28,578 nucleotides of DNA, taken from the IMG/VR virus record IMGVR_UViG_3300045912_000185, positions 1 through 28,578 of that record; one strand, written 5' to 3'. The stretch is from a virus. The position numbers and the translations under genes were made by a program. How positions within the stretch are numbered: position 1 is the stretch's first letter; every line of letters begins with the position of its first letter. The notes beneath the pieces are model-generated. The model was not told the DNA's origin, ran no database searches, and saw only the letters and a list, made by a program, of their open reading frames with translations. This document shows positions 1 to 28,567 of this stretch, one piece after another.

Positions 1-269
1 CCAAGCACATTGCCGTCCAGTTCAAAGCGCACATCATCGTCATCGAGCGTATCGAAAATGCTTTTGAGGATTGCGTAATTGACACAGACTGCATTGTCCC
101 CGTGATTGCCGACTTGGACGGTGAACTCAAGGTTTGTTGCCGTAATTGCAACATCCTCTTCGGATTGAGCCGGCGTCAGTTTCACGTTTTGGATGATGGA
201 CAGTGGTGATTTGGTGTTGACCACCTTTGCCATCAGACCCAAATCTCGTTTGATAGCAGAACCATTCAT
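1..269 (-). CDS. dnaN: DNA polymerase III beta sliding clamp, N-terminal part
   Basis: Partial gene: it starts here and runs off the left edge, so only 89 codons are visible. The translation begins MNGSAIKRDLGLMAKVV and continues with a pattern typical of domain 1 of bacterial beta clamps: a helix, a short strand containing SPLSIIQNVKL, then ITATNLEFTVQV (compare the usual 'atdle..i' strand), a conserved glycine-rich turn, and VNYAILKSIFDTL. The family forms a ring on DNA that tethers the replicative polymerase. A strong AGGAGG lies 7 nt before the ATG at 267-269. It sits downstream of initiator and helicase-loader genes, which supports a replication role. The identification rests on the N-terminal domain only; whether the clamp is full length cannot be seen. 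Confidence 0.75.
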   Translation of the reverse strand, partial: MNGSAIKRDLGLMAKVVNTKSPLSIIQNVKLTPAQSEEDVAITATNLEFTVQVGNHGDNAVCVNYAILKSIFDTLDDDDVRFELDGNVL

Positions 270-2864: not shown

Positions 2865-3145
2865 TGTTTCTACCTCCGATTCTTTAACATTTGATTTTGT
2901 GTTTTCTTGCTGACACTGATTCGTGAAAATGGGGTGCGTTTTCTGCACATTTTGTGTTGAATGTGTGAATCATGTAACAAAACATCGTTACACATTCGTT
3001 ACATAAATCGTTACACATTCGTTACATAAATCGTTACACATTCGTTACATAAATCGTTACATTAAATGTAACGTTTCGTTACATCATTCGTTACATTAAA
3101 TGTAACGAATCGTTACATTAATCGTTACATTGTTAAGGTGCAAAA
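2865..3145. other. Non-coding region containing the probable replication origin
   Basis: About 280 nt without a gene, between the lipoprotein start and the recT terminator. The right two thirds hold the CGTTACA iteron array. The left part (2865-2970) holds only the ribosome site of the lipoprotein gene and A-rich sequence on the minus strand; I could not find a convincing -35/-10 pair. Iterons next to a DnaD-type initiator gene are the standard layout of a theta-type origin. Confidence 0.55.
2973..3129. repeat. CGTTACA iteron array
   Basis: Eleven direct copies of CGTTACA begin at 2986, 2997, 3009, 3020, 3032, 3043, 3055, 3077, 3089, 3111 and 3123. The spacing alternates 11 and 12 nt, with two 22-nt gaps. 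Inverted copies (TGTAACG) sit in those gaps at 3067-3073 and 3101-3107, and a partial inverted one at 2973-2978. The first six copies form a 23-nt higher-order unit repeated three times. Spacing near one helical turn places the sites on one face of the DNA, as in initiator-binding arrays. Confidence 0.9.
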
Positions 3146-3179: not shown

Positions 3180-3181
3180 GA

Positions 3182-3979
3182 CTATTTCTGTTCCTCACCG
3201 AACAACTGTTTGATTGCCTCTTCAGCGGTCAGGTGTACTTCCGGCTCTTCGGGAGTTGGGGTCACTTCATCGGGCGCGGGTAATTCGGCGGCAATGCGCG
3301 CGGTCAGACTTTGGCTTTCATCCTCATCACTGACATCATCGTCATCGTACAAATTCATGACCGACATGGGCCCGTATTTCAGGAGCTTGCGAAGTACAGT
3401 CTTTCGCGCCATTTCATCGAAATTTGTAGTCCAAGCACTATCCGGCATACCCCACGACTTGGAATACTTCTTGGCGTGTTCCTTCACCTCGTCTACGGTC
3501 ATATAGACTGTCTTTTCGAAGCCGTTGACGAGTTTGAAGAATCCGAAATAGCCAACGGTTTTCGTCCCTGGGCGAATACGCCGGAAATTGTGCAGACCCG
3601 TCTTGATGTCCAGCGTAATCTCCACCCCGTCATCGAGAACAGCATCGTTGATGTATCGGTATTGGTTTGTCCGCAATGCTAACTGCATTAATCCCTTGTA
3701 CCCTATTATCAGCGTGCATTTATTCTTGTACGGGACAAGGTATGCCTGTCCCGTATTCGGATTTACGGACAGTCGAAGGGTTGCGGCGTTCAGCGCGGAC
3801 GCGATGATGCTTTGTGGCTCACATTGCTGGAGACGCGGGTTCTGCGCCGCCTGTAAAAGAACATCCGCAATGTACGCATTGGCGTTTCCAGTACCAACGA
3901 TGGAGGCGAACCGTTCCCGTATCTCCAAACTGTTGGCATACTTTTTCAAAACCATTTGATTGTTCTGGTTTTCAGCCAT
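3182..3979 (-). CDS. recT: RecT-family single-strand annealing recombinase
   Basis: A 265-residue protein that matches the RecT pattern along residues 20-210: FASIVGTGNANAYIADVLL, NPRLQQCEPQSIIASALNAA, LRLSVNPNTGQAYLVPYKNK, then LIIGYKGLMQLALRTNQ, VGYFGFFKLVNGFEKTVYMT and WTTNFDEMARKTVLRKLLKY. RecT proteins coat single-stranded DNA and anneal it to complementary strands, usually with a partner exonuclease (RecE type). The C-terminal 55 residues are acidic (DDDDVSDEDES and a proline/glutamate stretch), a common feature of the family. The AAGGA before the ATG is reasonable. No exonuclease is seen beside it in this window. A hairpin terminator follows the stop immediately, so the gene forms its own short unit, possibly controlled from the palindrome upstream. 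Confidence 0.93.
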   Translation of the reverse strand: MAENQNNQMVLKKYANSLEIRERFASIVGTGNANAYIADVLLQAAQNPRLQQCEPQSIIASALNAATLRLSVNPNTGQAYLVPYKNKCTLIIGYKGLMQLALRTNQYRYINDAVLDDGVEITLDIKTGLHNFRRIRPGTKTVGYFGFFKLVNGFEKTVYMTVDEVKEHAKKYSKSWGMPDSAWTTNFDEMARKTVLRKLLKYGPMSVMNLYDDDDVSDEDESQSLTARIAAELPAPDEVTPTPEEPEVHLTAEEAIKQLFGEEQK

Positions 3980-4017
3980 CTTTCAGTTCCTTTCTTTTTT
4001 ATGGGGATTGTGTCTCT

Positions 4018-4056: not shown

Positions 4057-4060
4057 GTAA

Positions 4061-4430: not shown

Positions 4431-4481
4431 CATGGTCTCCTGATTCGCCTCATCTTTCTACGGTTCAGCCATTGAAGAAAT

Positions 4482-5231
4482 TTATTGTTTTCCTTCGATG
4501 ATGCTTTCGATTTTTGCGATGCGTTTTTCAAGTTCTTCAATTCGCTCCTCAATCGTTGGTTTGCTTTCTTTCACCCTGCCAAAATACTCATTGACCGCTT
4601 TTTCATCTCCATTCCAGCGGTTGTAATCCTGATGCTGTTTGTCTGTACTGGCACAGAACGCCCGGCATTTGTCACCGGTCTGGTGAATCAGCCATGTGCT
4701 TGCGCCTTTGGGTAATACAGGCGGGCCCGGGTGCTCGTCCGCATAAATGCTTCCCGGCTTCGGTTTGAGATATTGCGCAAGCCACAGGTGCATCTTCGGC
4801 AAGTTACGGAACAAAAGACGGCGCTGGATGAATTCTGCTCGGCTGTACAGAATGGGAAGCATCCCTGTATTGCGCTCAAAAATTTGGGCAATGTCGCTCA
4901 CGGTCTTGGTGTACTTCAGAAGACTGGCGTCATGCTCCACCTCAACGTCCAGAACAAAACGGTCATGTTCATCGTATTTTCCCAAATGAGTAAAGAAATT
5001 GTCCGCCTGTTTGGTTGCGTCTTCATTGGGATAGACGACATGATACGCCATCCGGTTGTATCCGCGCTTTCCCGCTTCCGCCCAATTGGCGGCAAAGAAC
5101 GGGTCACGATACGCCCATGAGATTGTGCAACGAAATGCAATGAATGTCACTCTTGGTATGTGCGCATCCACCGCATCCCACCTCAAAAATCCATCATACC
5201 TCGATACGTCAATACCAAATGCTCTCTCCAT
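4482..5231 (-). CDS. Endolysin, GH25 (Chalaropsis-type) lysozyme
   Basis: A 249-residue protein. Residues 4-210 follow the GH25 fold: FGIDVSRYDG at the start with D8, an internal AYHVVYPNEDATKQADNFF, the catalytic strand RFVLDVEVEHD with D95 and E97, then ILYSRAEF, LWLAQYL and a C-terminal WLIHQTGDK strand. The enzyme cleaves the beta-1,4 bond between N-acetylmuramic acid and N-acetylglucosamine in peptidoglycan. There is no signal peptide, so release would need a holin, and a holin-like gene follows 51 nt downstream. Instead of a familiar wall-binding domain, the last 28 residues are a heptad coiled coil (IEERIEELEKRIAKIESII). The start has AAGGAGACGGCT in front. Confidence 0.92.
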   Translation of the reverse strand: MERAFGIDVSRYDGFLRWDAVDAHIPRVTFIAFRCTISWAYRDPFFAANWAEAGKRGYNRMAYHVVYPNEDATKQADNFFTHLGKYDEHDRFVLDVEVEHDASLLKYTKTVSDIAQIFERNTGMLPILYSRAEFIQRRLLFRNLPKMHLWLAQYLKPKPGSIYADEHPGPPVLPKGASTWLIHQTGDKCRAFCASTDKQHQDYNRWNGDEKAVNEYFGRVKESKPTIEERIEELEKRIAKIESIIEGKQ

Positions 5232-5243
5232 AGCCGTCTCCTT

Positions 5244-6044: not shown

Positions 6045-6427
6045 ACCATTTCTCCGATTTTCCAATTTCTTTTTATCCAATACTCCACCTGCAAACCCGT
6101 ACCAGTGACCCTCGTTTCGACTAATTCTCTATACTCAACCTGTAGACCAATGGCAGTAACGATTTTTGTGTTGGGTATCTCGCATTCCACTTGAATACCA
6201 ATGGCGGTAAGCATTCTGGTATCCGGTGGCTTGTATTCAAATTGAATGCCCGCACCGGTGACCCTCGTTTCAAGTGGTATATCATGCTCGACCTGTACAC
6301 CTGTACCAGTAACCCTCGTTTCAAGTGGTGGCTTATGCTCGACCTCAACACCCGCACCGGTGACCCTCGTTGCCAGCGGGACATCGTGTTCAACTTCAAC
6401 ACCGGTTGCGGTTACACGTCTGGTCAT
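6041..6427 (-). CDS. Tandem-repeat virion protein (RVTGxGVxVEH repeats)
   Basis: A 128-residue protein made of seven consecutive 16-17-residue units. Consensus: T-R-V-T-G-x-G-(V/I)-(Q/E)-V-E-(H/Y)-x-x-P-L-E. The first four are close copies; units five and six drift (MLTAIGIQVE, IVTAIGLQVE) and the seventh returns to consensus before a short basic tail (KRNWKIGEMV). Alternating small and beta-branched residues with a turn at each VE(H/Y)xxP suggest stacked beta strands. It is coupled by ATGA overlaps to appendage genes on both sides, so it is probably a virion or fibre component, or a spacer between them. Similar VTxxGVxVEY repeats occur in other phage structural genes as I recall, but no function is known to me. 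Confidence 0.6.
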   Translation of the reverse strand: MTRRVTATGVEVEHDVPLATRVTGAGVEVEHKPPLETRVTGTGVQVEHDIPLETRVTGAGIQFEYKPPDTRMLTAIGIQVECEIPNTKIVTAIGLQVEYRELVETRVTGTGLQVEYWIKRNWKIGEMV

Positions 6428-13727: not shown

Positions 13728-13986
13728 ATCTACGCTCCTTTTCATAAGTTTCACGTTCTGCTTCGGCGCGTGCCGGGTCTCGTTTATTCTTGAGATAATG
13801 ATAAATCTCACGCGCCTTTCGTTGTCCGGTATCAGTTATCTGCACATGATAGGCAAAGGGTTGCGGAATGCGCCGGACATCACTGCCCCCGCAACGTGGG
13901 CAAGAGACCTGAATCACCTCCTTCATCCTTGCGTGAACAGAAAACTTATCGTCACAATTCTCACACTGATACACATATATCGGCAT
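13714..13986 (-). CDS. FmdB-family zinc ribbon protein
   Basis: A 90-residue protein. Residues 1-45 match the FmdB-type zinc ribbon: MPIYVYQCENCDDKFSVHAR, with cysteines at 8, 11, 29 and 32 (CENC and CPRC), then GGSDVRRIPQPFAYH. Such ribbons bind a zinc ion. The rest is a helical, highly charged tail (KNKRDPARAEAERETYEKER). FmdB-type proteins are common in bacteria and in some phage genomes, with no firmly known phage function; they are often annotated as regulatory. Its ATG overlaps the stop of the glycosyltransferase by 1 nt, and its end overlaps the coiled-coil gene, so it belongs to the head-tail operon. Confidence 0.8.
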   Translation of the reverse strand: MPIYVYQCENCDDKFSVHARMKEVIQVSCPRCGGSDVRRIPQPFAYHVQITDTGQRKAREIYHYLKNKRDPARAEAERETYEKERRYGNQ

Positions 13987-14687
13987 TATGTTTCGTCACC
14001 TCCACGATATGAGTAAATAAAGAACTCCCGTAAGCCAATGGTCACATTGTCCCCGGCAATATGTCCAGTATGAACCGCATAATTGACATAAATCGGGAAG
14101 CCGGCTTCTTTGACCTTACGGCAGAACCAAAAATCCTCACCAGCGCTTGGCGGGTGAGTAACCTTGTAATGCGGCGGTTCAATCGCTTGCAGAACGTCTT
14201 TGCGTATCAACACAAAGTGACTACCACAAGCGTCCACTTCCTCAACGACATCTTCTTCGAATATTGGCGGAACCCATGTTTCATCACTTGGCTCGTATTT
14301 ATTCTGCAATGCCACTTCAATCACACGTTCTGAAGCGTGTTTGAACGAGTAGTAGGCATCGCCATTCTCGTCCACCCTGTCCAGTGTTCCTGCAAACGGA
14401 ACGGTTGGAAATCGTCTCTGATAAACAACGGCACTGACCACAGGAAGATTGAGGTGTACCAAACGCTTCAGCGCGTCAGGATGCCACGATGCGTCTGAAT
14501 CGTGCATCAGCAGGAAGTCAAAATCGTTTTCTAACGCATATTCAACGATTTTATTTCTAGCAATATCAATGGGAAGACCGCGTACACAATACCAGAAAGT
14601 AGGAAAATCCGTAGCAGTTCCCCACAATGACCTGACATAATCAAGGGGAAAGTCTCGTGTCGTTGGAACACCAAGCATGACACGCAT
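13986..14687 (-). CDS. GT-A type glycosyltransferase
   Basis: A 233-residue protein from the ATG at 14685-14687 after GGGAGGTGTTT; the longer frame to 14735 runs through a hairpin and is not used. It begins RVMLGVPTTRDFPLDYVRSL, then reaches FDFLLMHDSDASWHPDALKR, where D63-S-D65 is the DxD motif that binds the metal and nucleotide sugar. VVSAVVYQRR, CGSHFVLIRKDVL and GEDFWFCRKVKEAGFPIYVN follow; E184-D185 and H206 fit the catalytic and metal-binding end of GT-A folds. It transfers a sugar from an activated donor. Lying between head and tail genes, it may decorate virion proteins, although host wall or DNA are also possible targets. Confident as to fold, not acceptor. Confidence 0.8.
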   Translation of the reverse strand: MRVMLGVPTTRDFPLDYVRSLWGTATDFPTFWYCVRGLPIDIARNKIVEYALENDFDFLLMHDSDASWHPDALKRLVHLNLPVVSAVVYQRRFPTVPFAGTLDRVDENGDAYYSFKHASERVIEVALQNKYEPSDETWVPPIFEEDVVEEVDACGSHFVLIRKDVLQAIEPPHYKVTHPPSAGEDFWFCRKVKEAGFPIYVNYAVHTGHIAGDNVTIGLREFFIYSYRGGDET

Positions 14688-14702
14688 AAACACCTCCCAA
14701 TC

Positions 14703-14737
14703 GGTTGGGCAGGTCGGGGGGCGCGACCTGCCCAACC
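14703..14737 (-). terminator. Strong hairpin between cement gene and glycosyltransferase
   Basis: Perfect 14-bp stem: GGTTGGGCAGGTCG (14703-14716) pairs with 14724-14737, with a 7-nt G-rich loop. It lies 10 nt past the stop of the capsid cement gene and ends 15 nt before the next start. No T-tract follows, so it is probably an attenuator or an mRNA stabiliser that raises expression of the capsid genes. Confidence 0.55.
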
Positions 14738-15151: not shown

Positions 15152-16156
15152 CTATTCAGTCCATCCGGCAAGGTTCTTCAGGTTGCGGACGCGGACAATG
15201 CCATATCGCCCGAAACTTGCAATGCCGTTCCACCAGTCAATGCGCATCATCTTGGCGGGACGTGCCTCCATCTCACCGCCATTCAGCGGGTCGTAGGGGT
15301 CGAACTGGTTCTTCTGAATACCATACACACCGTCTTGGGTGTTGATGGATATTAGATAGAAACTCATGGCAACGTTGGATGCCGTGCCATCGGGTTCGTT
15401 TTCGGGAATAATCTCGGTGGTTCGGTCTTGCAGTAAGCCAACGTCAATGAACTTGACACCGCGATAACTCACCTCTTCACGCCCGTAATTGTCACGGGTT
15501 ACATCCAGATAGTTGCCGTAGCCCTGTAGGAGTGCCAAAACCCGTGAGAAACCGATGATGAACGATTCGTTGCACAGGATGGCATTGACATTCCCCTTAT
15601 TGCAGTATCGCCAAGCCATGTTGAAGGTGTTGATGAATTTGCGCGCATTGGCGGCACTTGCAGTTGGGTTAAGCGCGGCGGCTGAAGAGCCACCAAGCCA
15701 GATGGTTTGACGCGATGGCATAGCCGCCACACGCTTTTTCAAACCGTTGAAGCCTTTCGGGTCAACCGCAACGTCACCGTTAATCAGGTAATTGTTCCAC
15801 GTGATTGCCATGCTTTCCAAACGCCCATCCACTTGCGTTTTGATGGGGTCAACGACGACGTTGCTCAAACCTTCAAGGACTTTATCGAACACAATATCCC
15901 CACCGAAGCCGTAGAGATGCTCGAACCCGTCGCCAAGTTGTCCATCTTGTGCGGCAGGATAACCCTCGTTCACCATACGGAACGCACCACCAGTGGGTAA
16001 TTTCTCCCACCATAAGGCGCGCACCTCCAGTGCCGACACGTTCTCGAAGGGAAGCATTTCCCATAGTTTCACGTGCCGAACGAGTTGCATCCCGATATAT
16101 TTCTTCAGCGGGTCTTTCTCAAGTTGCGCTACTTGCGCTAACGTGATACCCGACAT
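15152..16156 (-). CDS. Major capsid protein (HK97 fold, Bbp17-like)
   Basis: A 334-residue protein from the ATG at 16154-16156 behind AGGAGGTAGATAATC. The sequence matches the capsid subunit of Bbp17-type phages: TLAQVAQLEKDPLKKYIGMQ, then LRALWW-type core residues around VSALEVRALWWEKLPTGGAF, VFDKVLEGLSNVVVDPIKTQ, a long helix with ARKFINTFNMAWRYCNKG, a NAILCNESFIIGFSRVLALL core, and MMRIDWWNGIASFGRYGIVR near the end. The order scaffold, capsid, cement is the usual head operon. It builds the icosahedral shell around the packaged DNA. Length is normal for the type. Confidence 0.88.
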   Translation of the reverse strand: MSGITLAQVAQLEKDPLKKYIGMQLVRHVKLWEMLPFENVSALEVRALWWEKLPTGGAFRMVNEGYPAAQDGQLGDGFEHLYGFGGDIVFDKVLEGLSNVVVDPIKTQVDGRLESMAITWNNYLINGDVAVDPKGFNGLKKRVAAMPSRQTIWLGGSSAAALNPTASAANARKFINTFNMAWRYCNKGNVNAILCNESFIIGFSRVLALLQGYGNYLDVTRDNYGREEVSYRGVKFIDVGLLQDRTTEIIPENEPDGTASNVAMSFYLISINTQDGVYGIQKNQFDPYDPLNGGEMEARPAKMMRIDWWNGIASFGRYGIVRVRNLKNLAGWTE

Positions 16157-16158
16157 GA

Positions 16159-16830
16159 TTATCTACCTCCTGATTTGATTTTCTGCTTTGCCAGTTCCCA
16201 AATTTGGTCTGGGTGTTTGACACCGGCAAGAGGGTCTGCCGCTGGTTGTGTGCCAACGGTAATCGGCAGCCCGCCTGTCGGCTTTGAAGCGGAGGTACGT
16301 TCTGACTTACTTTGCGCGGCTTTGATGACATTCACCAGTAATTCGGAAGGTGTCTTGGATTGCGCAATGATAGCCGCTTCTGGGTCTGTGTCGTCAATCG
16401 TCACGCCAAAGTGTGTCAGTATTTTGGCAACCGCATCCTGCATCACGTCTTGGGATTGTCCAACCGGTTTATCCGTCTGCCCACTAGCCGGAACACTTGA
16501 TTGGGTTTGCTCCTCTCGTCTTACCTGCTCTTCAGCCTTTTGGCGTAGTTTCTTCTCAACGTCCGGCGTCATTTCCTGCCCAATGTCTCTGAAAGCAGAT
16601 GAGAGTTCCTCAAAACGCTGGTTGATACGGTGCATCATTTTGTCACGTGCGCTCTGTTGACGCTTATCGTACTCGCTCAAGGCGTTTGTGATGGCGTCTG
16701 GTAGAACTTGTTTGACAACTTCTTGCACACGCTGGAGAATAACATCCGCGCCGCCATCCACAGGCTGTTGCTGTGAATGGTTTTCGTTGGGCTGGGCTTG
16801 TCCCACTAGGTCTTGAATATTATCTGTCAT
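16159..16830 (-). CDS. Capsid scaffolding protein
   Basis: A 223-residue protein. It is hydrophilic and helix-rich with no cysteine: VILQRVQEVVKQVLPDAITN, DKMMHRINQRFEELSSAFRD, then a Q/E/R-rich coiled coil (EKKLRQKAEEQVRREEQTQS). A second helix pair (MQDAVAKILTHFGVTIDDTD, then AIIAQSKTPSELLVNVIKAA) and a C-terminal basic end (AKQKIKSGGR) follow. These are hallmarks of scaffolds, which guide capsid assembly and then leave. It is 2 nt upstream of the capsid gene and has a very strong AGGAGGAGGT site, in line with high expression. No protease domain is evident. Confidence 0.8.
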   Translation of the reverse strand: MTDNIQDLVGQAQPNENHSQQQPVDGGADVILQRVQEVVKQVLPDAITNALSEYDKRQQSARDKMMHRINQRFEELSSAFRDIGQEMTPDVEKKLRQKAEEQVRREEQTQSSVPASGQTDKPVGQSQDVMQDAVAKILTHFGVTIDDTDPEAAIIAQSKTPSELLVNVIKAAQSKSERTSASKPTGGLPITVGTQPAADPLAGVKHPDQIWELAKQKIKSGGR

Positions 16831-16847: not shown

Positions 16848-16875
16848 ATTATAACCATTCTCTACTTTTATTCAA
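16848..16875 (-). promoter_or_regulatory. Candidate promoter for the capsid operon
   Basis: On the minus strand a TATAAT (16848-16853) lies 16 nt from TTGAAT (16870-16875). The -35 overlaps the stop of the giant gene. Transcription would begin at about 16841, right before AGGAGGAGGT, giving a very short leader. The match is good but the leader is tight. Confidence 0.45.
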
Positions 16876-19800
16876 TAGTTGGCAGAACCGCATTGTCAAT
16901 CCAATCTTCCAGATTGCCCCACGGCTCTCCTAAACTGCGCCAAATGCGTTCGATTTCTAATCGCGCTCCCGGTAATAACGCCTCTCTACGATACTTCAAT
17001 GCGTACAACTGCATAATCAATCCTCTGGAGAAGCGTCTTAACTCGCTTGGCGTCAGATACGGACGCGCCGGCTTCGGCGATACACTTCGTGATGTTCCTC
17101 CTGTGCCTGTTCCTGTGCTGGTTCTTCCACCTCCTCTTTCTCCTAAAATACTCCGTGCTAAACTTTCGTCTGTCAAAATGTACGGTGCGGCTTTGGGATA
17201 TTGCGCCGCGAAATTGCGCTGGAACTCCCAATACTGTTCCAGTTCAGGATGCGCCGCTCTGAATGCACGCCGTTGCTGTTGCGGCAATGCGAAATAACGC
17301 TCCTGCAACTGGAAGATGTCCGGGAATAATTCGTCCCTCATCGCACGGTACATATAAACATACTGCTGAATTTCAGCAGGCAGACCGGCTAACCGATTAT
17401 TCTCGCCAATAACATACGGAATAATCTCTGGGTTTTCAGCAAGATACTTGTTCTGCCAACGAATAAACTCTTCGTTGTTCTCCGGTTGCTTCTCGAATAA
17501 AGCCCGCAAGGGGTCTGTCTGTTGCGGCGTCTCGCTCCGCGGGAACAGTCTATCGCGCTCTTCATAGTACTGCTTCACCTTCGCTCGCACATTTTCGGGA
17601 AGCCAATTTATCTCCATCTTTGCATCATGGACATTCTCCAATGGCTTTTCCCCTAACGTGTTCGCCCACAGTGCTAACGTATCGGTGTCAATACTGCCGT
17701 ACGAACGTGTCTTCTTATCCAAGAATAACTCGGTGAACTTGTTTCCAGCCATCTGCTTGAACATACGCTGGGAAGCCGGGTCGAGGTCAAGGTATCGTTC
17801 CCAAATTCTCGAAATCAGGAATGCACGCAGTCGGCTTTGCGGGTTTTTCATCGCCATTCGCCGCGCATCATATTCAGGATATTTCTCCCAAAACTTGTTC
17901 ACCGCTTGCGTGTCACCCTTTTCCTGCGCCTCATACGCTTTGGTCAATTCGTTCTTCAGCGCACGCATTTCGGCTTCGCCTTCCGGGAAGATGTCCAGTG
18001 CTACACCAGCACCAAGCATCCGTACGAAACCGGTTTGCGATACGCGCCGTTGTGCTTCTTCGAATGCTTCTCCTTTCCGCTCAATCATGGCACGAATGGC
18101 GGTCTGCTCATCCAGAAGACCATCCGCAACCATGTTGGATAATTCACGGTCAACACGATAATCTTCCCAACGGTCAATCTTGGGCAAGCCGGTGGCTGTT
18201 CTCACAAGACCTTCGATGTTGATGCCACGCGGGCCCCCAATGCCAAGCGCACCAGTAATGTTCTGGATGGTTCTGGTCAATGGCATTTGACCAATGCGTT
18301 CCGGTGTTCCCATTGCATACTGATACGCAATGCCAATCGGCAGACTGGGCCCGTAAATGCTGAACAACATATCGGCACTATTGCGATATTCTCGTTCGGT
18401 CTCATTCTCCGCCTGTGCGTACGCTCGCTTCCAGATGGGCGTATTCCGCTTCCGCAAGGCTTCCTGTAATTGCGCATCGGTGATTTCCTCGTTGTCACGC
18501 ATCTCTTTCAAGATGCTCTCTGTCTTGCGTATCAGCATGTTGCGCTCTTCGGCGATTTCTACAAACGGTGTCGCCAATTGCAGGAACGGGAATATCTGCC
18601 TGTATGGGTCAACATATCCATACTGACCCATCCACTCCGGCAGGAACGGCAACGGAATAGGTACTTTCCCTTTCAATCGTTGCGGGAAGCCATCCTTTTC
18701 CTCGCGGCGGGAAGCCATGCGCATCAGACGGTAGTAATTCGCCAAGATGGACGGCTTGTTCGCCATGCGAAGCAACCAGTTTATCATCGTGCGGGTGTAC
18801 CAGAACTGGTATGGGAACACCGCCGATAGCAACGTATCGTAGCCATGCCGTCTGTCGTAATTCAGCAAAGCGAAATCACGGCGGGTTTCACCCCAACGGA
18901 TTGCGCCCATTCGAGTATCCGCAAGATTGGAGTACACACCACCCAAGTATCGCCATAAATTGTCTTCGGTCTCTTTCGGAATGCGGACGCCGCCGGCTTT
19001 CTCTGGACTGAACGCATCCAATGCCCGGTTTTTGGCTCTGTCCAGAATTGGCAACACATCTCGCAATGTGCCTTCCAGCATCGCATCACGCATGGGCGCG
19101 TCTCTCATGCTATCGTATGTGCCTAATGGCGCGCCGACTGCATCGGCTACTCTTGGCTGTTCTCCGGCTGGTTGCTCTCCGGTTGGCTGTTCTCCAACGG
19201 GTTCTCCAACGGGTTGTTCTCTGACTGGTTGCTCTCCGAAGAGTTCGGTGATGGGTTCTCCGGCTGGCTCTGGCTGTCTTCCAGCGGTACTGTCCATGAC
19301 CTCACCAACGGGCGCAACGGGGGCAGTTTCTGCGGGTGGTTCTGTGACGGTTCGTGCTGTTTCTCTTGGTACATCTTGTATCACCTCAAATCGCACATTG
19401 TTTCTGGATGCCGCCGCATCGAACAAATCTTGCTTGCTTATCCTGCCAACGTCAAACATGGTCATCTGGTTTGCTGGCGGCTGTTTCAATGCCATGTCTA
19501 CATACGTGCGGATAACCGCATCCAGCTTGCGTGTCTCACGTCCAACATCGTCAATCATCTTGACTAAACTGCGCTGAAAGCCGGTCAGGTCATCGGTTGG
19601 GAACAACGTGGCTTGGCTCAAAAATTCCTTGACGGACATGCCCTGTTGCTTCAGTCTGGCTATCACGTCCACCGCGGCACTCAAATCATTGGCAATGCTG
19701 TATTCTGGTGAGACCACACCCATCCCGATTTGCGCTTCCAAATTCGCCATTGCTGGAAGCGTGCGGAATAACACGCTTTGCAGGGAACGGATGCTCACGT

Positions 19801-22800
19801 CTAGACTTTCGGAGAATGCGGTAATCAATCTCGCGCCGGCTTCATTGGCATAAACCCGCGCAAACATGGCATTGATGATGCGCTGGGCTCCAACAGAAGA
19901 CAATCTGCCGCTTGCGTCCATCATCGAAGCGCGTTCGTTGTCTGGCAACTGTTGAACGAAACTGCGCACAAAATCGGCATTCTTCGAGGATGCGATAATC
20001 GGGACAACCTCATTGACGTTCTCCGGGAATTGGATATTCTTCAATGCTTCGTCACTGATAAATTTCGCATCCTGTAATGCCTTTTCGGCAGGTGACATTG
20101 CCATCACTGCGATTTGATTGGCTTCACGTGCAAATGCCGCCCGGTCAACGTCATCCTTCCGTACTCGAACCAATATCGGATTTTCTATTCCGCTAATGTC
20201 TATGCCTAGCTCTTGGGCGCGCATTGCCAAAGCATTTTGATACTGTTGCCATTTATCAGGATAATTCTCCTTTGCAAAGCGTAATGCCATTGCACGTCCG
20301 TTCCCGCTCTCAACAACGAAATCGGGCCCGACAATTATGGGGCCCCGGTCAATATATGGACTGTCATTCAGCAATTCGCCTGGGCTTAATTCGGACGCAA
20401 TGCGATTAACTTGGTCACGGCTTGCGGCGCGTCCACGAACACGCGGTTGCAGTTCGCTGGGATACGCTGGATTTTCGCTGAAATTATCCAGATGGCTGAT
20501 GACCAACTGGTCAAGCGGGACAACCTGATATTCAAAGTGATACACCTTATTCACGTCTTGACCACGTGCCGTAGTCAGCCGCGATGCCTGTTCTGGTTGT
20601 GGAACTTCCTGCCGCAACACCGGCACTTCAGGTTGGCTCATCAGGTCATGAACGTATGTGGCGTTCTCAAATTCCTTGTCAACCTTTGTCTTGGGCAGTC
20701 CATACGGTTCTTCAGACAACCACTTGTCGAACACCGAACGGATGTTTTCGTCCAGTACAATCGGTTCTCCTCCCGATATGATGTTGCGAATGCTCTTGTA
20801 AATATCCAGTAGCCATCGTTTGAACTTCTCAAAGATAGACTTCATGCGATGATTGGGTGCTTTCCCTTCGGCAAGATATTTCTCGAATGCCGTTGCAAAT
20901 AATTCTTTCTCTCTTCGATGGGTGCGCGTGCCATACTGCCATCCTTCGGGAAGGTCTTCAATCTGGTAGACGCTTTTCAACCAGCGTTCGACTGCGGCAA
21001 TATCGTCCTTTGGAAGCATGGTCAGGAACGAGTGCGCCGTTTCGTGGACGAGTGTAGAAATGTCTCCACTTTGCTTGAAGATGGTAATCAACGCCTTACC
21101 ATCTTTCATGAATTGCGTCATACCTTTGGGAATGTCCTCGTCTGCCGGTCTTCTGCTGAAGAGTGGCTGTCCTTCCAGCACGCTCCTGCGCATGGCATCG
21201 GTAATGGGGACGAACAGGAACTCGTTTGGTTCTCCCGGCAAATACATTGCTTCTGGCTCAACGCCCCATTTCTTCACATAGTCTTCGATTTTACGCGGCA
21301 GAATTTCATCGTAGAACTTCTTCAATCCACCGTGCGTAGTGTCGTAGGAAAGCCGGTTGAATGTTATGTTGCCTTCTTTCAAGAGACGATTGATATGTTC
21401 CAGCGAAAATTCTCCATCCACAAGCGATTTATTTAGCCTGTCATGCAAGACTTGTGCGGCATTTTCCACTGGAAGACGAACATATTCACTGAAAAGATAC
21501 TCGTATCCTTCATCAGGTGTGTACACGTAGTATTCCAGTTTATGAAAACCGTCCCCTGTGTTCCGTATTTCAATTTTCTCTATTGGAACGGCATATCTTC
21601 TGGTATGAACATCACCGCTTGCTATAAGAATGCCATCCATTTTCCGTTCGGCGGCGTAGTGAAGCATCCGCTTGAACGCCAAAATATCCCATTTCTTCGC
21701 AAATGGCATTTCTTGGTAGCCAAATTCCCGCAATACCTTATCTGCCATTTGCGGTGATGTTTTTGTTTCTTTATCCGCTTCGAACTGTTTTTGCTTTTTA
21801 CGTAGCTCTTCGAAGAAGTCACTTTGGATTTCATCCACGTAAAGTACGCGCTCGCCGGTGTCTAATGTCAGTTCTTTGGTTCGTGCATGGGCAACTATGC
21901 CGTAATCTTCAAAATGCGTAGAACGATAAATAGCAGTTCTCGCATCTGGCATTTTTTCTTTTTCATAAGTTATCTTGAAAATATTATCTGGCTTTTCCGA
22001 ACTTCGAAATCTCAATTCGACTTTTCCATCCGGTTCGACTTTGTAGTCTATAAAGTTGTCAATCCCGCGGTAATCAAACATCTCTTCAATGTCGGCTCTC
22101 AAATCGGCAATAGTAGACCTTCTTGTAAAACTTTGTACTGTAACACCATCCCTTTCTAAACTAGCAGTTACCCGATAATTATCTCTCATAAACACAGGTA
22201 CAAGCAGAAACTCACGATAATTTTTCCCACTGCCGTATTTCAATTCGGAGAACTTCGGCATAAACTTTTCATATTCTGTTTTGCCAAAACCCATCTTTTC
22301 TTCTCGAAGTTTTCTCCAGACCGTGGGTCTTTCTTCTATAATTTCAGGATTTTTCTCCTTCAGAGACTGCATAATGGCGTCCACTTGCTGGACTAACTTT
22401 TCTAATTTTTTCTCCGTCAACCCCTCTATTTTTGTCAATGTAGCCAAATCGACAGAGTTTCTTTGCAGATACTCCATCAGCTCTGCTTTTGTGACGTAAT
22501 CTTTTCGGGCAATATATTCGTCCAATCCCGTCCAAAGCATTTCTTCTCGTGGCACACCACGCTTTTTGAGATAACCCAAGAATTGCCCGCTGGACATGCG
22601 CTCCTGCGGCATGGTCTCCACTGCCCTGAAAGTCGGAGAATAGTACCAGCTCGCCGGCTCATCCGGCGATTTTCTGCGCTGGAACAACGGCAAACCCTCT
22701 TCTACGCTTTCTCTCATTTCCGGCGTGATGGGGATTTTTATCAGGTCAACCTTGCCCAACTTTTCCGTTTTTACGGTTTCTGTTTCGGGAATAACATTCC

Positions 22801-25800
22801 ATTTTTTGAATAACTTTGTAGCCACACTCTGGACAATTTTGTCGTAGAAATAGACCAGACCGGGATTTTCTGTAATGACAACGCCATTATCCTTTGGTAG
22901 TTTTATTGTGACAGTCAGATAATTGAAGTAGTCCGCTTTTCCTTCCGTATATTTTCCGCTTTGTAATTGTTTGACCAATGCGTCTAAAATCTGGTCAATC
23001 ATGTGTTCGTGCGGAATGTATTCTTTCAGCTGGTTTTTGAGGAAGGCACGATGTTCAGGATTGTTGACCAGCGTGATTGCCATGTTCGTTTCCGGGTCAG
23101 AAGGTAAGTAATTAACCCTTCCGTATCCGAATATTCCTTTGGAATAGTCATCATCCACAAGAAGCTGGTACAGATACGGCGCATTTTTGGCAATCATTAT
23201 TTCTATTTTTTCAGGCGATTTCTTTGTGTTGTAATACAAGGCGGCGTTCATTACGCCGGACGGAAGGATAAAGTAGTCTGCATCAGTGGCTTTAACGGCA
23301 TAGTGCAACGCTCTTTTGAGACCAAGTTCAACCCATTTCTTGGTATCGCTGAATGGAAAATCATTCACAAAAAATCTAAATGCCGCTCTTGGTGCGTCTA
23401 GGAATAAGTCACTATCGTTTGTAAATAACACAATTTTCTTTCCATATACGACATAGTTGATATTCCAATTCTGTAGGGTATTTTCAATCACTTTAAGCGG
23501 GTCATTTTTGAAAGTTTCTATGTCGTCCCGACTTACTTTTAGCCCTGTTCTGACACCGTTGTAGTACACATCATATTCAGGGGGCAAATTTTTCGGTACA
23601 TTTTCCACTGCCCCTCCAATAGAAGTGTAATACGTCAATCGGAAACTGATTTTATTTGGGTCAATTGGCTCAATGTCTGGCGGCAACGTGTCTTCTGCGC
23701 TAATAAATTCCAATTTTTTCGCTTGGAATAAATCGCTTTGAATTTCCTCTGCAAAGAACGCTTTTTTGCCGTTCTTCGTTCGGATTTTCCCTCCGCGTAC
23801 GTGTAAGAACGGGAGTGGTTCATTCTTATCGAGAAGTCTGTCTGCCCAATAACCCGCTTTTCTCCAATGAGTTCCTGCCACATCCGACCAGGCGTTTCTC
23901 AAGTCGATATTTAATCGTGCTGATGCTAAAAGTTCTCTATTTGTATAAACTTCAATCAGCCTTCCGTCTTTGGATGTTCTCCATTCGACATCCAGTTTTT
24001 CTCCATGCAAGCGCGCCCAACGTTCTTTTTGGCGTACGGCTGTCCGTAAAAGTTCAAGTGCTTCTAATTTCGTGACATCGTACGGGTTTTCTGCAAATAC
24101 TCTTGCGTCACCGGCTACAGACCACGTTCTTCCTTGATGTTTATTGAGTAACAGTAACTCAACGTAATCCCCGCCCCACTTTGCAACGTAACTATACTCG
24201 CCGTATATGGGCTTTCCGCTTTCTCTAATGTCTGCGATTTTCTCTTTCTCTCTGGCAAAACGTTTGGCACGAGTGTAAAAGGTTTTGACGTCCGGGTATC
24301 TATATTCAATTTCATCCCGCAACCATTCACGGGTGAAGAGGTGGTCGTCATCGAACAGGTCAAAAACTCCAGACCAGTAAATTTCGTTCTCGCTGACACC
24401 GCGCCCAAGTAAATATCGTTTCCACTCTTTGATTGTCGCTTTATTGACGCGCGCCTTGTCAATCTCCTCCAATAACTTGGATGAATACCACTTATTGCCA
24501 ACACGTTGGAATAATGGCTGACCCGCAAGAATATCAGCTCTCATCCGCGGGTCATACAAATTCATCACCCACGCCCCGGGCTCCCATAAAAACGGAAGGG
24601 CATCTTCTTTGTATTGGAACGCCTTGCCCCACTTCTTCAGGTACTTGTTGGCAGTGGCAATCAATCGTTCATCATAGAACTTTCCAACACCAGCATTGGC
24701 GGTTTTCAGCATCTCTTTGTCAACGTCTATGAGAATTTGTCCTTCATCGGCTTTTTGCATAACATGCTCTGTTAATTTTTCGCCGATATAACTTGGCAAT
24801 TCCCTGTAAGTATTTACTCTTTCTATTTCGTTCTTTCCTTCTGTTGGATAGATTAGCAACGTAACTGATTTTGTAAAGTCTGGTTTTCCTGTTCCGTCAT
24901 CTTCAAATGTAACTTGTAGTCTTTCAATCCCCTTTGATAAATCCCATCGCTCCTCATGAACTTTGCCCGGAGAAATAGCAATCATGCTGTACCCTTCTTC
25001 AATTGCATAACGCAACATTCTCTTTATAGCCAATTCATCCCAATTCTTGCTGAAAGGAGCCGGCGGTACTTTATTTTCAACTTGCGCTATCCATAATGCG
25101 ACATATCTTGGCAGTATTCCAGTTTCTTGGTATCTCTCAAAATCACCGCTGTCAATTTGTGTAATCGCTAACCCTCGTTTGTCGAGAATGGCATAAATGC
25201 GTTTTTCTCCTAATGTATCGCCTGTATCTACAATTTTATAGCCTTCCGGCAAAGTTCTATCGAGCTCCCCAAAATAACCATACCTCCGCCCTGCTTGATG
25301 CCAATCACTTTGAATCTCGTCTATGTATAAAATCGTACGTCCTGCATGTTGAAAACCCGCATAACGAACGTGAACAATCGGATTGAGTTCAGACCAATGC
25401 GGACTTTGATAAACATAATTACCAAGTATAAAATTTCGTATTGCTTCATGAGGCGTCTTGTCCACCTCATAAACCGTGCCATAATATTTATCTCGAATGG
25501 CGTATCCCCCTTTAAGTACATTATCAGGCACTAACTCGACATCTGGCGGAAGAGAATCAGTGTAATACAATGGCAATTGTAGTAAAAGCTCATTATATCC
25601 AAGAAATTTTTCACGTAAATCAGCAGAGTCTTTTCCTATCCTTATTGTTTCCCTATAAGTACTATATGGTTCGTATTTAGGAGAATATTTTCTCCGTATA
25701 GAGAAGTCCTTTACGCTCATTACTTGTGTGGCTTCCGTTTCAAGATAATCAATCAAATCTTGTTTCGTCACCACCTCATTGCCTTTGCTGGCAAGATAAT

Positions 25801-28567
25801 TCGAAAGACCCATCCAGCGAAGCTCTTCATCCTTCACCTGCGCGCTTTTCAGAATGTTTAGCCATTGATTCGCCGGTGCTTTCTCAACTTTTGCCCCCTC
25901 AATCGCCTGTTGCGATTTCAAGTAATACCATTGACTACTTACGTAACGGGACTGTTTCAAATCCTCTTCGTCAACCGGTAAATCCTTGTACTGGATAATA
26001 AATCTTTCGTAGAACGCATCCGGTGTCGTGTTGTATTCTCTTGCGTAATGGCTCGCCATCGCATCCCAAATCTTCAGCATGGCATCGGCTTGCTCTAACG
26101 CTTTCCGCTCGTCTCTCATCCGCTCCGTGAGAAACTCCAGAACCCCTTGATAAGCCACCTGTCGGGCATACTCCGGCTCATCTGCCCGCGCCAAGACATC
26201 ATTCATGTTCAGCTCAATCACGCGCGCCATCTGTTCTGCCTGTTGCATCCAATTGCCTTGCGCAAGCGGTTCGGACGGCGGTTCTGTCGTTTCTCCTTCC
26301 ACCTTCTCCAGAGAGTATGTGGAACGGTCATACTTCATAAAATTCGGGTCGGCGTTTCGTTGCGCCTCGGACGCCTTCAATACTTGATATACATCCTCAA
26401 TAGACGGGATGTCGCTCAACTTCCCAACGGCATAGTGCATCATCATTCCGGTATATCGCTCGATTTGCCCGGTCTCGCTGTTTTTCATGGTCAGTGTGCC
26501 ATGCAACACCCGTTCCTGAATTTGCTTGGCGTAATTTTCGGCGTCCTTTTTCTTCTCGAAAATCGCCGCAAATTCATCACCACCAATCCGATATAGACTG
26601 ACACCTAAACTGTCCGCCACATCCCCAATGTACTGAATGTATGCGTTCCCAACCAAATCACCAAATTTCTTATTGGTGAGATGCAGACCGCGCAAATCAA
26701 ACGCAATAGTCCAGTATGACTTCGGCTTCTTTGCCCTTTTATTCTGCTCCGCCAATTTCTCAAGGTCTTTTATCATCCGCCCTTTGTTGCGGAAACCGTA
26801 CGTATCATGGTCGGCTTCAAAATCTCTGCTCTCCAACGCCCGCGCCATATACACCGCTTGCTCGGACAATGCGTCTTTCGGCATTTGCCCAACGTCTTGA
26901 AGCGGCGCAATGTCATAACCGGCATTGAATCGGTCAATCCGTTTCGTTTTCTTTTTCTCTTGAATGGCGCGCAATAAGACCGGAACAGTAATATCTTTGA
27001 TGCTCCGAACGTATTCATATTGTGCATAGGCTCTCACGAAATTAATCAAATGCTGTTCAGAACCTTTCAACGGTCTGCCTTGCGCATCCACCTGTCTGAA
27101 TTCTGGTAATTCCTGTGCAACCAGTTTCCAGATAATTTGCTCTTGCCGTCTTTGCTCTTCAAATACGGCATCGTATGGTTGCGATGGAACGTATGTAGAC
27201 TGCGGCTTTTCTTCTGCCGGCTTGACCTCCGCCGTTTCGGCTACGGGTTGTGCCTGTTCGGTCTGCGCCCGTGTTTCTGGTCTCAAATTTAATTCCGGCT
27301 TTTCCAGTGACGTGCTTCCCACCGCATTTCGATTGGACGTGTCCAGCAGTTCGGCAATCAAAGGCTGATAAATCGTCTGATAGAATATCTGATTGATTCT
27401 TTCCCTTTCGCGGACTGCAATCCGATGAATGGGAACGCCCTGATTCAGCTCAAGGATTCTCTGCTTCACCTCCGGTTCGAGTAAATCGCCCCACTCATCC
27501 AGAAACTCTTGCGGGATTTGTCCTTCCCGGAAGAGTAACGTTGCTTGTTGCGTGCGGCGGCGAACACGTTGTACGCTTTCACGCCAACGCATCGCATCCA
27601 GATAGGCTTGTGGGTCACCATTCATCTGTTGCTGATACTGCCGTGCAAACGACTTGTTCAGACTGTCTTGTAGCAAATCTTCGGCAAGTATCATGAAGCG
27701 ATACTCTCTGGCAACTTGGGCATTCACTTCTTCCCAAGCCGTAGCACGCGCTTCGGCGCGCATGTTTTCCGGCATCGTTTCATCCGCATCAATTCGTTCA
27801 ATGACGCTCCAGTAGTTATCAAACGCATCCTTGCGTGTCTGATAAAAATTCCGGTAGGTGGCGTAAATATTCAGCAAGGTGGTTTCTGCGCTAACGTATT
27901 CCGGGCTTGCCTCCTCCGCGCCAAGTCCCTTGAAGATGCCCAACCACGTTGCCCCTTCCTGATTTTGGTACAACGTCCAGAAAGCATCTTGCTGTTCAAA
28001 TAATTTGCGCCATTCTCTTGCGCGTTCTGCACCGGTTAAATTGCGGATTTCTTCGGCACGCATCTCCATCTGGAACATGTGATTCAGCCACACTTCGGCA
28101 AGCATGGACGTTGCTCTATCGGCTTCATCCAGCACCGCTTGTGTCTTCTCCACATGCGCTTTTTGTGCGGCTTCCTCCACCCGCCCTTCAATGTTGCGCA
28201 TTGTCTCATTGACCAAATCACGAACCAAACCACTGCGCGCTCTTTCAAATACATCTGCAATGTCTTGCTTCGAACGTGCATTGCGCAACCCCTCATCCAA
28301 CTCATCGTACATTTCGGGGAAATGCTGTTTCAAGAAATTCCGTTCTTGCCGGGTCAGAACATCGTCAAGCGAACGGGTGTCAATCTCCTTGAAAATCTTC
28401 CTCTCAATCGCTTCTTTGCTCATTCCGCTTTCGATGGCGCGCTTCACCTTGTCCGCAAGACCGGGCTTGACCGTATCCAGCGCAAGGCGAAGTTCATCGC
28501 TCATCCGCTCAAAGGCAACACCTTCTCGCCATGCGTTCTTGAAATACTCATCTATGCCATTTATCAT
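16868..28567 (-). CDS. Giant polyvalent virion protein: GGDEF, triple EIQSD modules, zinc metallopeptidase, ParB
   Basis: At least 3,899 residues. The first ATG seen (28565-28567) has no ribosome site and the frame is open to the window end, so the true start is probably upstream. Order: helices 1-425; P/E-rich linker about 426-466; GGDEF domain about 586-745 with D624, N632 and GGDEF at 662-666; three modules with EIQSD at 1084, 1608 and 2246, each closed by G(Q/L)PLF(Q/S)R at 1349, 1958 and 2466; HETAH peptidase at 2508-2512 with likely third ligand E2555; DdrB-like ParB domain about 2680-2960 with SGNGR at 2754-2758; GEQP-repeat linker about 3110-3138; C-terminal region about 3160-3899 with aromatic amphipathic segments. 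Such polyvalent proteins are packaged in the virion and injected to disarm the host. It lies directly upstream of the scaffold gene. Confidence 0.85.
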   Translation of the reverse strand: MINGIDEYFKNAWREGVAFERMSDELRLALDTVKPGLADKVKRAIESGMSKEAIERKIFKEIDTRSLDDVLTRQERNFLKQHFPEMYDELDEGLRNARSKQDIADVFERARSGLVRDLVNETMRNIEGRVEEAAQKAHVEKTQAVLDEADRATSMLAEVWLNHMFQMEMRAEEIRNLTGAERAREWRKLFEQQDAFWTLYQNQEGATWLGIFKGLGAEEASPEYVSAETTLLNIYATYRNFYQTRKDAFDNYWSVIERIDADETMPENMRAEARATAWEEVNAQVAREYRFMILAEDLLQDSLNKSFARQYQQQMNGDPQAYLDAMRWRESVQRVRRRTQQATLLFREGQIPQEFLDEWGDLLEPEVKQRILELNQGVPIHRIAVRERERINQIFYQTIYQPLIAELLDTSNRNAVGSTSLEKPELNLRPETRAQTEQAQPVAETAEVKPAEEKPQSTYVPSQPYDAVFEEQRRQEQIIWKLVAQELPEFRQVDAQGRPLKGSEQHLINFVRAYAQYEYVRSIKDITVPVLLRAIQEKKKTKRIDRFNAGYDIAPLQDVGQMPKDALSEQAVYMARALESRDFEADHDTYGFRNKGRMIKDLEKLAEQNKRAKKPKSYWTIAFDLRGLHLTNKKFGDLVGNAYIQYIGDVADSLGVSLYRIGGDEFAAIFEKKKDAENYAKQIQERVLHGTLTMKNSETGQIERYTGMMMHYAVGKLSDIPSIEDVYQVLKASEAQRNADPNFMKYDRSTYSLEKVEGETTEPPSEPLAQGNWMQQAEQMARVIELNMNDVLARADEPEYARQVAYQGVLEFLTERMRDERKALEQADAMLKIWDAMASHYAREYNTTPDAFYERFIIQYKDLPVDEEDLKQSRYVSSQWYYLKSQQAIEGAKVEKAPANQWLNILKSAQVKDEELRWMGLSNYLASKGNEVVTKQDLIDYLETEATQVMSVKDFSIRRKYSPKYEPYSTYRETIRIGKDSADLREKFLGYNELLLQLPLYYTDSLPPDVELVPDNVLKGGYAIRDKYYGTVYEVDKTPHEAIRNFILGNYVYQSPHWSELNPIVHVRYAGFQHAGRTILYIDEIQSDWHQAGRRYGYFGELDRTLPEGYKIVDTGDTLGEKRIYAILDKRGLAITQIDSGDFERYQETGILPRYVALWIAQVENKVPPAPFSKNWDELAIKRMLRYAIEEGYSMIAISPGKVHEERWDLSKGIERLQVTFEDDGTGKPDFTKSVTLLIYPTEGKNEIERVNTYRELPSYIGEKLTEHVMQKADEGQILIDVDKEMLKTANAGVGKFYDERLIATANKYLKKWGKAFQYKEDALPFLWEPGAWVMNLYDPRMRADILAGQPLFQRVGNKWYSSKLLEEIDKARVNKATIKEWKRYLLGRGVSENEIYWSGVFDLFDDDHLFTREWLRDEIEYRYPDVKTFYTRAKRFAREKEKIADIRESGKPIYGEYSYVAKWGGDYVELLLLNKHQGRTWSVAGDARVFAENPYDVTKLEALELLRTAVRQKERWARLHGEKLDVEWRTSKDGRLIEVYTNRELLASARLNIDLRNAWSDVAGTHWRKAGYWADRLLDKNEPLPFLHVRGGKIRTKNGKKAFFAEEIQSDLFQAKKLEFISAEDTLPPDIEPIDPNKISFRLTYYTSIGGAVENVPKNLPPEYDVYYNGVRTGLKVSRDDIETFKNDPLKVIENTLQNWNINYVVYGKKIVLFTNDSDLFLDAPRAAFRFFVNDFPFSDTKKWVELGLKRALHYAVKATDADYFILPSGVMNAALYYNTKKSPEKIEIMIAKNAPYLYQLLVDDDYSKGIFGYGRVNYLPSDPETNMAITLVNNPEHRAFLKNQLKEYIPHEHMIDQILDALVKQLQSGKYTEGKADYFNYLTVTIKLPKDNGVVITENPGLVYFYDKIVQSVATKLFKKWNVIPETETVKTEKLGKVDLIKIPITPEMRESVEEGLPLFQRRKSPDEPASWYYSPTFRAVETMPQERMSSGQFLGYLKKRGVPREEMLWTGLDEYIARKDYVTKAELMEYLQRNSVDLATLTKIEGLTEKKLEKLVQQVDAIMQSLKEKNPEIIEERPTVWRKLREEKMGFGKTEYEKFMPKFSELKYGSGKNYREFLLVPVFMRDNYRVTASLERDGVTVQSFTRRSTIADLRADIEEMFDYRGIDNFIDYKVEPDGKVELRFRSSEKPDNIFKITYEKEKMPDARTAIYRSTHFEDYGIVAHARTKELTLDTGERVLYVDEIQSDFFEELRKKQKQFEADKETKTSPQMADKVLREFGYQEMPFAKKWDILAFKRMLHYAAERKMDGILIASGDVHTRRYAVPIEKIEIRNTGDGFHKLEYYVYTPDEGYEYLFSEYVRLPVENAAQVLHDRLNKSLVDGEFSLEHINRLLKEGNITFNRLSYDTTHGGLKKFYDEILPRKIEDYVKKWGVEPEAMYLPGEPNEFLFVPITDAMRRSVLEGQPLFSRRPADEDIPKGMTQFMKDGKALITIFKQSGDISTLVHETAHSFLTMLPKDDIAAVERWLKSVYQIEDLPEGWQYGTRTHRREKELFATAFEKYLAEGKAPNHRMKSIFEKFKRWLLDIYKSIRNIISGGEPIVLDENIRSVFDKWLSEEPYGLPKTKVDKEFENATYVHDLMSQPEVPVLRQEVPQPEQASRLTTARGQDVNKVYHFEYQVVPLDQLVISHLDNFSENPAYPSELQPRVRGRAASRDQVNRIASELSPGELLNDSPYIDRGPIIVGPDFVVESGNGRAMALRFAKENYPDKWQQYQNALAMRAQELGIDISGIENPILVRVRKDDVDRAAFAREANQIAVMAMSPAEKALQDAKFISDEALKNIQFPENVNEVVPIIASSKNADFVRSFVQQLPDNERASMMDASGRLSSVGAQRIINAMFARVYANEAGARLITAFSESLDVSIRSLQSVLFRTLPAMANLEAQIGMGVVSPEYSIANDLSAAVDVIARLKQQGMSVKEFLSQATLFPTDDLTGFQRSLVKMIDDVGRETRKLDAVIRTYVDMALKQPPANQMTMFDVGRISKQDLFDAAASRNNVRFEVIQDVPRETARTVTEPPAETAPVAPVGEVMDSTAGRQPEPAGEPITELFGEQPVREQPVGEPVGEQPTGEQPAGEQPRVADAVGAPLGTYDSMRDAPMRDAMLEGTLRDVLPILDRAKNRALDAFSPEKAGGVRIPKETEDNLWRYLGGVYSNLADTRMGAIRWGETRRDFALLNYDRRHGYDTLLSAVFPYQFWYTRTMINWLLRMANKPSILANYYRLMRMASRREEKDGFPQRLKGKVPIPLPFLPEWMGQYGYVDPYRQIFPFLQLATPFVEIAEERNMLIRKTESILKEMRDNEEITDAQLQEALRKRNTPIWKRAYAQAENETEREYRNSADMLFSIYGPSLPIGIAYQYAMGTPERIGQMPLTRTIQNITGALGIGGPRGINIEGLVRTATGLPKIDRWEDYRVDRELSNMVADGLLDEQTAIRAMIERKGEAFEEAQRRVSQTGFVRMLGAGVALDIFPEGEAEMRALKNELTKAYEAQEKGDTQAVNKFWEKYPEYDARRMAMKNPQSRLRAFLISRIWERYLDLDPASQRMFKQMAGNKFTELFLDKKTRSYGSIDTDTLALWANTLGEKPLENVHDAKMEINWLPENVRAKVKQYYEERDRLFPRSETPQQTDPLRALFEKQPENNEEFIRWQNKYLAENPEIIPYVIGENNRLAGLPAEIQQYVYMYRAMRDELFPDIFQLQERYFALPQQQRRAFRAAHPELEQYWEFQRNFAAQYPKAAPYILTDESLARSILGERGGGRTSTGTGTGGTSRSVSPKPARPYLTPSELRRFSRGLIMQLYALKYRREALLPGARLEIERIWRSLGEPWGNLEDWIDNAVLPTIE
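19150..19250 (-). repeat. GEQP/GEPV tandem repeat linker
   Basis: Short near-identical 12-15-nt units encode GEQP, REQP and GEPV pentad-like repeats at about residues 3107-3139 of the giant protein. They give a flexible acidic, proline-rich link between the ParB-like domain and the C-terminal region. Confidence 0.75.
21152..25855 (-). repeat. Three copies of the EIQSD module inside the giant gene
   Basis: Three long, diverged protein-level repeats: residues about 905-1355 (24503-25855), about 1372-1964 (22676-24454) and about 1985-2472 (21152-22615). Each has a helical lead-in with a W-x-G motif (W918, W1398, W2012), a (D/E)EIQSD motif, a following W/E-rich 'P(F/A)..W..LA.KR(M/A)L.YA' helix, a GKFYDE or GLKKFYDE segment (clear in copies 1 and 3), and a closing G(Q/L)PLF(Q/S)R motif. 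Divergence shows that the duplication is old. Confidence 0.8.

Follow-up and report, generated by a model that had tools for sequence, protein, structure and literature searches.

The stretch of DNA analysed here, hereafter the window, is the whole of IMG/VR virus record IMGVR_UViG_3300045912_000185 (28,578 bases) and probably a fragment of a genome. It encodes a giant phage protein in which an earlier interpretation, made from the DNA letters without database searches (the sequence-only reading), had placed a GGDEF-type nucleotide cyclase domain (Table 1). Profile searches and structure prediction confirm that residues ~578–745 form a genuine, divergent GGDEF domain, and comparison with related giant proteins suggests that this particular copy is degenerate.

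In the full-length protein, hmmscan matched Pfam GGDEF to residues 592–716 (E = 3.6e-6; score 27.3 bits, cut-off 23.8), and the excised region gave 33.3 bits (E = 5.1e-8). The match to NCBIfam TIGR00254 lies under the cut-off of that model (24.1 versus 37.4 bits), which fits a divergent member; PHROGs of unknown function also match the domain (phrog_14602, E = 6.7e-8). The sequence-only reading had proposed structure prediction and superposition as a check, and the AlphaFold2 model, built from the domain and 40 related phage sequences, displays the GGDEF topology and no other fold (mean predicted local distance difference test (pLDDT) 83, core blocks 87–98; predicted template modelling score (pTM) 0.77). 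The best 50 matches listed by Foldseek against the PDB are GGDEF proteins without exception (best E = 3.3e-8), with a target template modelling score of ~0.7 for single-domain entries. That the domain merely resembles a GGDEF protein by chance around that string, within an unrelated fold, is extremely improbable: pairwise identity to GGDEF proteins is indeed low (~13–38% across partial lengths), but the profile score, the colinear motifs, the AlphaFold2 topology and the exclusively GGDEF Foldseek matches listed refute this possibility computationally.

The active site was scored at 12 positions, whose functional roles I take from their PleD counterparts and from the structure of GacA (PMC6456294), described below; the guanine contacts of PleD are presumably N335 and D344, and its phosphate-binding lysines K332 and K442. 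The residues that the sequence-only reading had assigned to the GGDEF motifs stand where it placed them (D586/T589/N594, D624, N632, G636, G640 and R660–F666), as do the substitutions that it had listed (D637, N641, R626 and K633). It was also right that the RxxD inhibitory site (I-site), expected five residues ahead of GGDEF, is absent, positions 653–656 being SLGV. Two changes had escaped it: the Lys of DxDxxK is H629 here, and the C-terminal Lys is E734. The window copy therefore carries the [GAS]G[DE]E[FY] signature of cyclases (RIGGDEF, 660–666) and the metal Asp (D624), but has only the Asn of the guanine-contact pair (N632), the Asp being N641, and neither of the phosphate-binding lysines (H629, E734). 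It departs at five of the 12 positions (R626, H629, D637, N641 and E734), more than any other giant protein of the set described below; L097, to which it is nearest, has four departures. Since the base-contact Asp is replaced by Asn and both phosphate-binding lysines are lost, a normal diguanylate cyclase is improbable for the window copy.

Relatives of the domain proved difficult to find by simple searches. No close phage homologue was found by tblastn against isolated phages, which matched only "Bacteriophage sp." fecal scaffolds and Acinetobacter records. These matches, and those to plasmids, were set aside: the four "Bacteriophage sp." fecal scaffolds examined encode membrane-anchored or EAL-fused, bacterial-looking proteins, the contig of the Acinetobacter records carries host genes, and the plasmid matches are mostly generic rhizobial GGDEF-EAL proteins. 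Neither the domain nor the long protein gave a match in direct scans of viral contigs, so that profile queries were needed. A first profile scan of IMG/VR returned short stand-alone proteins and one giant, a second one, with the domain of that giant as the query, returned six loci, and a third profile-based scan yielded 150 stretches encoding relatives, from which 79 loci were retained. The resulting giant set comprises 63 open reading frames (ORFs) of more than 800 amino acids (811–5995), no two alike in domain sequence; IMG/VR supplied 60 of them and bacterial genome bins the other three. No isolated phage with the giant form is among the matches listed.

The dominant signature among these giants is YHISGDEF. 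[G/A/S]G-type signatures have been attributed to active enzymes (PMC6456294), and SGDEF is therefore not by itself a loss. All 63 giants have the metal Asp (D624), N632 and GDEF, and Lys at 734, Asp at 626 and Lys at 629 are found in 62, 60 and 59 of them, respectively. Position 641 is Asp in 56, Asn in six (among them L097, L090 and L042) and Thr in one. All six core residues (D624, N632, D641, D664, E665 and K734) occur together in 55 of 63. In a tree of 105 rows, a branch with an SH-like approximate likelihood ratio test (SH-aLRT) value of 96 separates the window and 65 of the 66 giant rows (L019 being the exception) from the bacterial cyclases that were sampled. As judged from these alignments, the GGDEF module is frequent in giant phage proteins, its active site is mostly intact, and one phage-specific clade holds nearly all giants.

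The scans also brought up a distinct family of phage GGDEF proteins, stand-alone and ~150–180 amino acids long, located near position 10001 in L008, L010, L011, L012, L016 and L017 and near position 2445 in L014. Their second motif is of the (D/T/N/A)xLH type, they carry YRIGGDEF, and they form a supported group of their own (SH-aLRT 99).

At 17 loci, two of them identical in sequence, the GGDEF protein also bears an inorganic pyrophosphatase domain, InPase (PF18823). The gap between the two domains is 13–396 residues (median 33), InPase preceding GGDEF in some proteins and following it in others. A random-placement test of their proximity gave a combined p of 3e-8, the true significance being weaker because several of these proteins are closely related. 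The GGDEF reaction releases pyrophosphate, and a nearby pyrophosphatase would thus fit an active cyclase. No such domain was found in the giant protein of the window when it was sought there, and none of 34 control ORFs of the lineage defined by the C-terminal region of the window protein has one (0/34), this lineage not being a general control. In the sections of Iyer et al. 2017 (PMC5512222) used here, GGDEF and InPase are both listed in polyvalent proteins, and InPase is suggested to clear pyrophosphate from nucleotide-processing reactions; no statement of their adjacency was found in those sections.

That C-terminal lineage gives a second view of the module. Among the loci with the C-terminal region of the window protein, GGDEF is present in four of 31 and missing from most, four being a lower bound as some loci are incomplete (L192 and L097 being one contig). 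Two of these four copies have extra residues in the A-site loop (RADEF and GTSGDEF). Because only four of 31 loci carry it, GGDEF is seen in these sequences as an optional plug-in of this lineage, often atypical.

The frame of the giant gene runs open up to the window edge. In L097, whose protein has 4836 residues, residues 929–1243 align to residues 4–311 of the window protein, which leaves ~925 extra residues upstream; on both grounds, the gene may extend past the edge. The ddrB-ParB domain matches, and is homologous to, that of phage P1 DdrB, a processed form of which is packaged in the phage head according to the same sections of Iyer et al. 2017 (PMC5512222), and the HETAHSF region is 37–47% identical to other giants. 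Family searches gave no strong match for the scaffold-like gene. The gene order in L097 is TerL, giant gene, small gene and phrog_212 major capsid protein, the last three being ordered as in the window, and L033 has a DNA-ejection-type gene upstream of its giant gene. A chain of this length that combines GGDEF, ddrB-ParB and a HETAHSF motif, encoded in the window as in L097 two genes from the major capsid protein, is by sequence and position a DdrB-type polyvalent protein as Iyer et al. 2017 (PMC5512222) use the term. The sequence-only reading had called it a phage virion protein; what holds is that it is a polyvalent protein of a phage and that its gene lies among the head genes, and gene order and family suggest that it is probably packaged in the virion and injected with the DNA.

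Table 1. Features of the window (positions in the window; residues are those of the giant protein)
Feature	Position	Strand	Residues	Basis or remark
Giant polyvalent-protein gene	16868..28567	minus	3899 aa	read from ATG at 28567
GGDEF domain	26333..26836	minus	~578–745	Pfam PF00990 above gathering score, AlphaFold2 model, Foldseek PDB
DLRGLHLTN	26672..26698	minus	624–632	metal Asp D624 and base-contact N632 kept; usual D626 is R, K629 is H
GDLVGN	26645..26662	minus	636–641	counterpart of GHxxGD; guanine-contact Asp is N641
RIGGDEF signature	26570..26590	minus	660–666	intact
C-terminal helix of GGDEF domain	26351..26404	minus	722–739	conserved Lys is E734; R737 kept
EIQSD domain, copy 1	24503..25423	minus	1049–1355	~300-aa domain with EIQSD motif
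EIQSD domain, copy 2	22676..23821	minus	1583–1964	as above
EIQSD domain, copy 3	21152..21940	minus	2210–2472	as above
HETAHSF metallopeptidase-like motif region	20708..20917	minus	~2551–2620	motif in sequence; phrog_9880 at 2493–2617
ddrB-ParB domain	20156..20548	minus	2674–2804	PF18763, E 4.5e-27
C-terminal region	16895..19162	minus	3136–3891	lineage marker, common to L097 and other loci
Scaffold-like gene	16159..16830	minus		directly downstream of giant gene; assigned from position and sequence character
Major capsid protein gene	15152..16156	minus		two genes downstream of giant gene; phrog_212, E 6.3e-31
Glycosyltransferase-like gene	13986..14735			directly downstream of capsid genes
51-bp tandem repeat	6249..6403			3 copies, in ORF 6041–6427
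GH25 endolysin	4482..5231
RecT recombinase	3182..3979
TCGTTACAY array	1701..1743 and 2985..3130			16 copies, 0.34 expected by chance
DNA polymerase III beta-clamp N-terminus (likely)	3..269			cut by window edge; below Pfam cut-off

Three further observations concern other parts of the window. The EIQSD domain, present three times in the giant protein, recurs in the set, where 15 proteins match it, that of the window included. It matched no Pfam family, and its AlphaFold2 model (pLDDT 77, pTM 0.67) found no fold in the PDB at E ≤ 0.001; going by this model, it is possibly an undescribed fold. The TCGTTACAY array, which is iteron-like or an operator array, adjoins the RecT gene, and four of its copies are inside a DnaB_2-type gene. 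The 51-bp repeat encodes a repeated VTGxGVQVEHD-like peptide.

From the computed fold, family, gene context, clade conservation and local loss of active-site residues, I draw the following inferences about packaging and injection, the product, and the loss of activity. The DdrB-like polyvalent head protein would be packaged and would enter the cell with the phage DNA. Most clade members, which keep the residues of a diguanylate cyclase, would make a cyclic dinucleotide at the start of infection, most simply cyclic di-GMP (c-di-GMP) or a related molecule; in some of them the cyclase shares its chain with a pyrophosphatase domain. In the window copy, which retains the metal acids and an incomplete base- and phosphate-binding set, c-di-GMP synthesis would be weak or absent, and the domain would act, if at all, in nucleotide binding or through a residual activity. 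GGDEF domains with altered sites can retain other activities. This reading, a GGDEF (palm-fold) module of a probably injected head protein, in a mostly active clade and degenerate in the window, is the one that I favour, and it is rather probable. The sequence-only reading had proposed that an injected GGDEF makes c-di-GMP or another signal, or acts as a decoy for a cyclic-nucleotide defence. For the wider clade, cyclic-dinucleotide synthesis is plausible, given the catalytic residues and the InPase often nearby; for the window copy, N641, H629 and E734 make it less likely, and a crippled or nucleotide-binding domain is more likely than a normal c-di-GMP synthase.

Several points weigh against the degenerate-module reading. 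D624, D664, E665 and N632 are intact, and a fully dead domain need not keep them. The branch that leads to the window row is long (2.09) and its pairing with L097 has an SH-aLRT of 88, so that the placement of the row is not firm, and the search for relatives returned no close one of this exact domain on which conservation within the lineage could be tested. In addition, the clade was gathered with queries of its own, which makes its split from bacterial cyclases sample-dependent; caution is needed there since the bacterial rows were fetched with a phage-clade query.

With its metal acids and E665 intact, the domain may instead be an active cyclase of altered substrate or product specificity: N641 would change the choice of base, so that the injected protein makes something other than c-di-GMP, such as a signal or a decoy against a cyclic-nucleotide defence. 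The recurrence of Asn at 641 in six of the giants goes in this direction, as do two known cases: in Hypr GGDEF enzymes, Ser at the same base-selectivity position relaxes purine choice (PMC6456294), and in mCpol proteins an S/N position shifts the product ratio (PMC12657218). Yet the Asp-to-Ser change removed the activity of canonical enzymes in four of five cases (PMC6456294), and H629 and E734 replace lysines that nearly all giants keep, which renders a changed product unlikely. At the other extreme, the domain might be a vestige, a cyclase module gained by recombination and now decaying, kept only as part of a folded chain and devoid of a nucleotide role. The number of departures, the highest among giants, and the rarity of GGDEF in the C-terminal lineage, with two disrupted A-site loops, are compatible with such decay; the exact retention of RIGGDEF, D624 and N632 is not what neutral decay predicts, and the domain still scores above the Pfam cut-off, so that a vestige is unlikely. 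A bolder proposal is that phages commonly resort to cyclic-dinucleotide synthesis by an injected protein: the large virion polyvalent clade, with its intact SGDEF/GGDEF sites and often a pyrophosphatase of its own, would signal as the DNA enters, and Asn641-type members such as that of the window would make another product that blinds or saturates a cyclic-nucleotide defence. I consider this quite unlikely.

The phage counter-measures known against nucleotide-signalling defence mostly eliminate the signal, by means of enzymes or sponges. Delivery of a signal-making domain by a virion protein would, if true, be the opposite move. Wide occurrence, a conserved site and a frequent InPase neighbour make the idea testable in intact members, the window copy being an example of module degeneration. 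Measured against the literature on the domain, that is, the open-licence content of PMC (later work may exist elsewhere), the new elements are the abundance of the module, the SGDEF-type site that it conserves, its pyrophosphatase neighbour and the degenerate state of the window copy. The occurrence of GGDEF in polyvalent proteins is already known from the sections of Iyer et al. 2017 (PMC5512222) used here, as is the proposal that it interferes with host nucleotide responses; the similar idea in the sequence-only reading thus has a published basis and is not novel. The same sections term GGDEF not very widespread in polyvalent proteins.

The polyvalent GGDEF proteins in those sections, for instance that of the Acetonema longum prophage (WP_004096050.1), resemble the window protein in that GGDEF is part of a very large multidomain phage protein, predicted to be injected, with other enzymatic domains. 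Compared by description, they differ from the present set in its 63 giants, mostly with SGDEF, and in the degenerate site of the window copy. Bacterial diguanylate cyclases (PleD, DgcB, WspR) share the fold, the metal acids and the GGDEF signature with the window copy, which by contrast has no I-site, has changed base and phosphate contacts and belongs to a separate clade of the tree; no sensory or response-regulator partner domain was recognised in the window protein. Phages also encode GGDEF as stand-alone proteins (Yuavirus-like Pseudomonas phages, Bordetella phages MW2, CN1, CN2 and FP1, Bacillus phages G and SP-15). Among the matches listed, the Pseudomonas and Bordetella ones are the isolated-phage sequences nearest the giant clade, and those of Bacillus phages G and SP-15 and of Bordetella phage CN1 match by fold. 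Being short separate genes outside a giant virion protein, they are presumably expressed after infection and not injected. Finally, Hypr GGDEF enzymes (GacA, Bd0367) and mCpol (Panoptes OptS) are palm-fold cyclases in which the base-contact residue affects product choice. In the GacA structure, Asn339 and Ser348 touch the base and the motif Asp374 holds magnesium (PMC6456294); the window copy has Asn641, not the Ser of Hypr enzymes, at the base-selectivity position. Membership of mCpol is ruled out, as mCpol proteins are nearly devoid of the GGDEF motif (PMC12657218) whereas the window domain has RIGGDEF.

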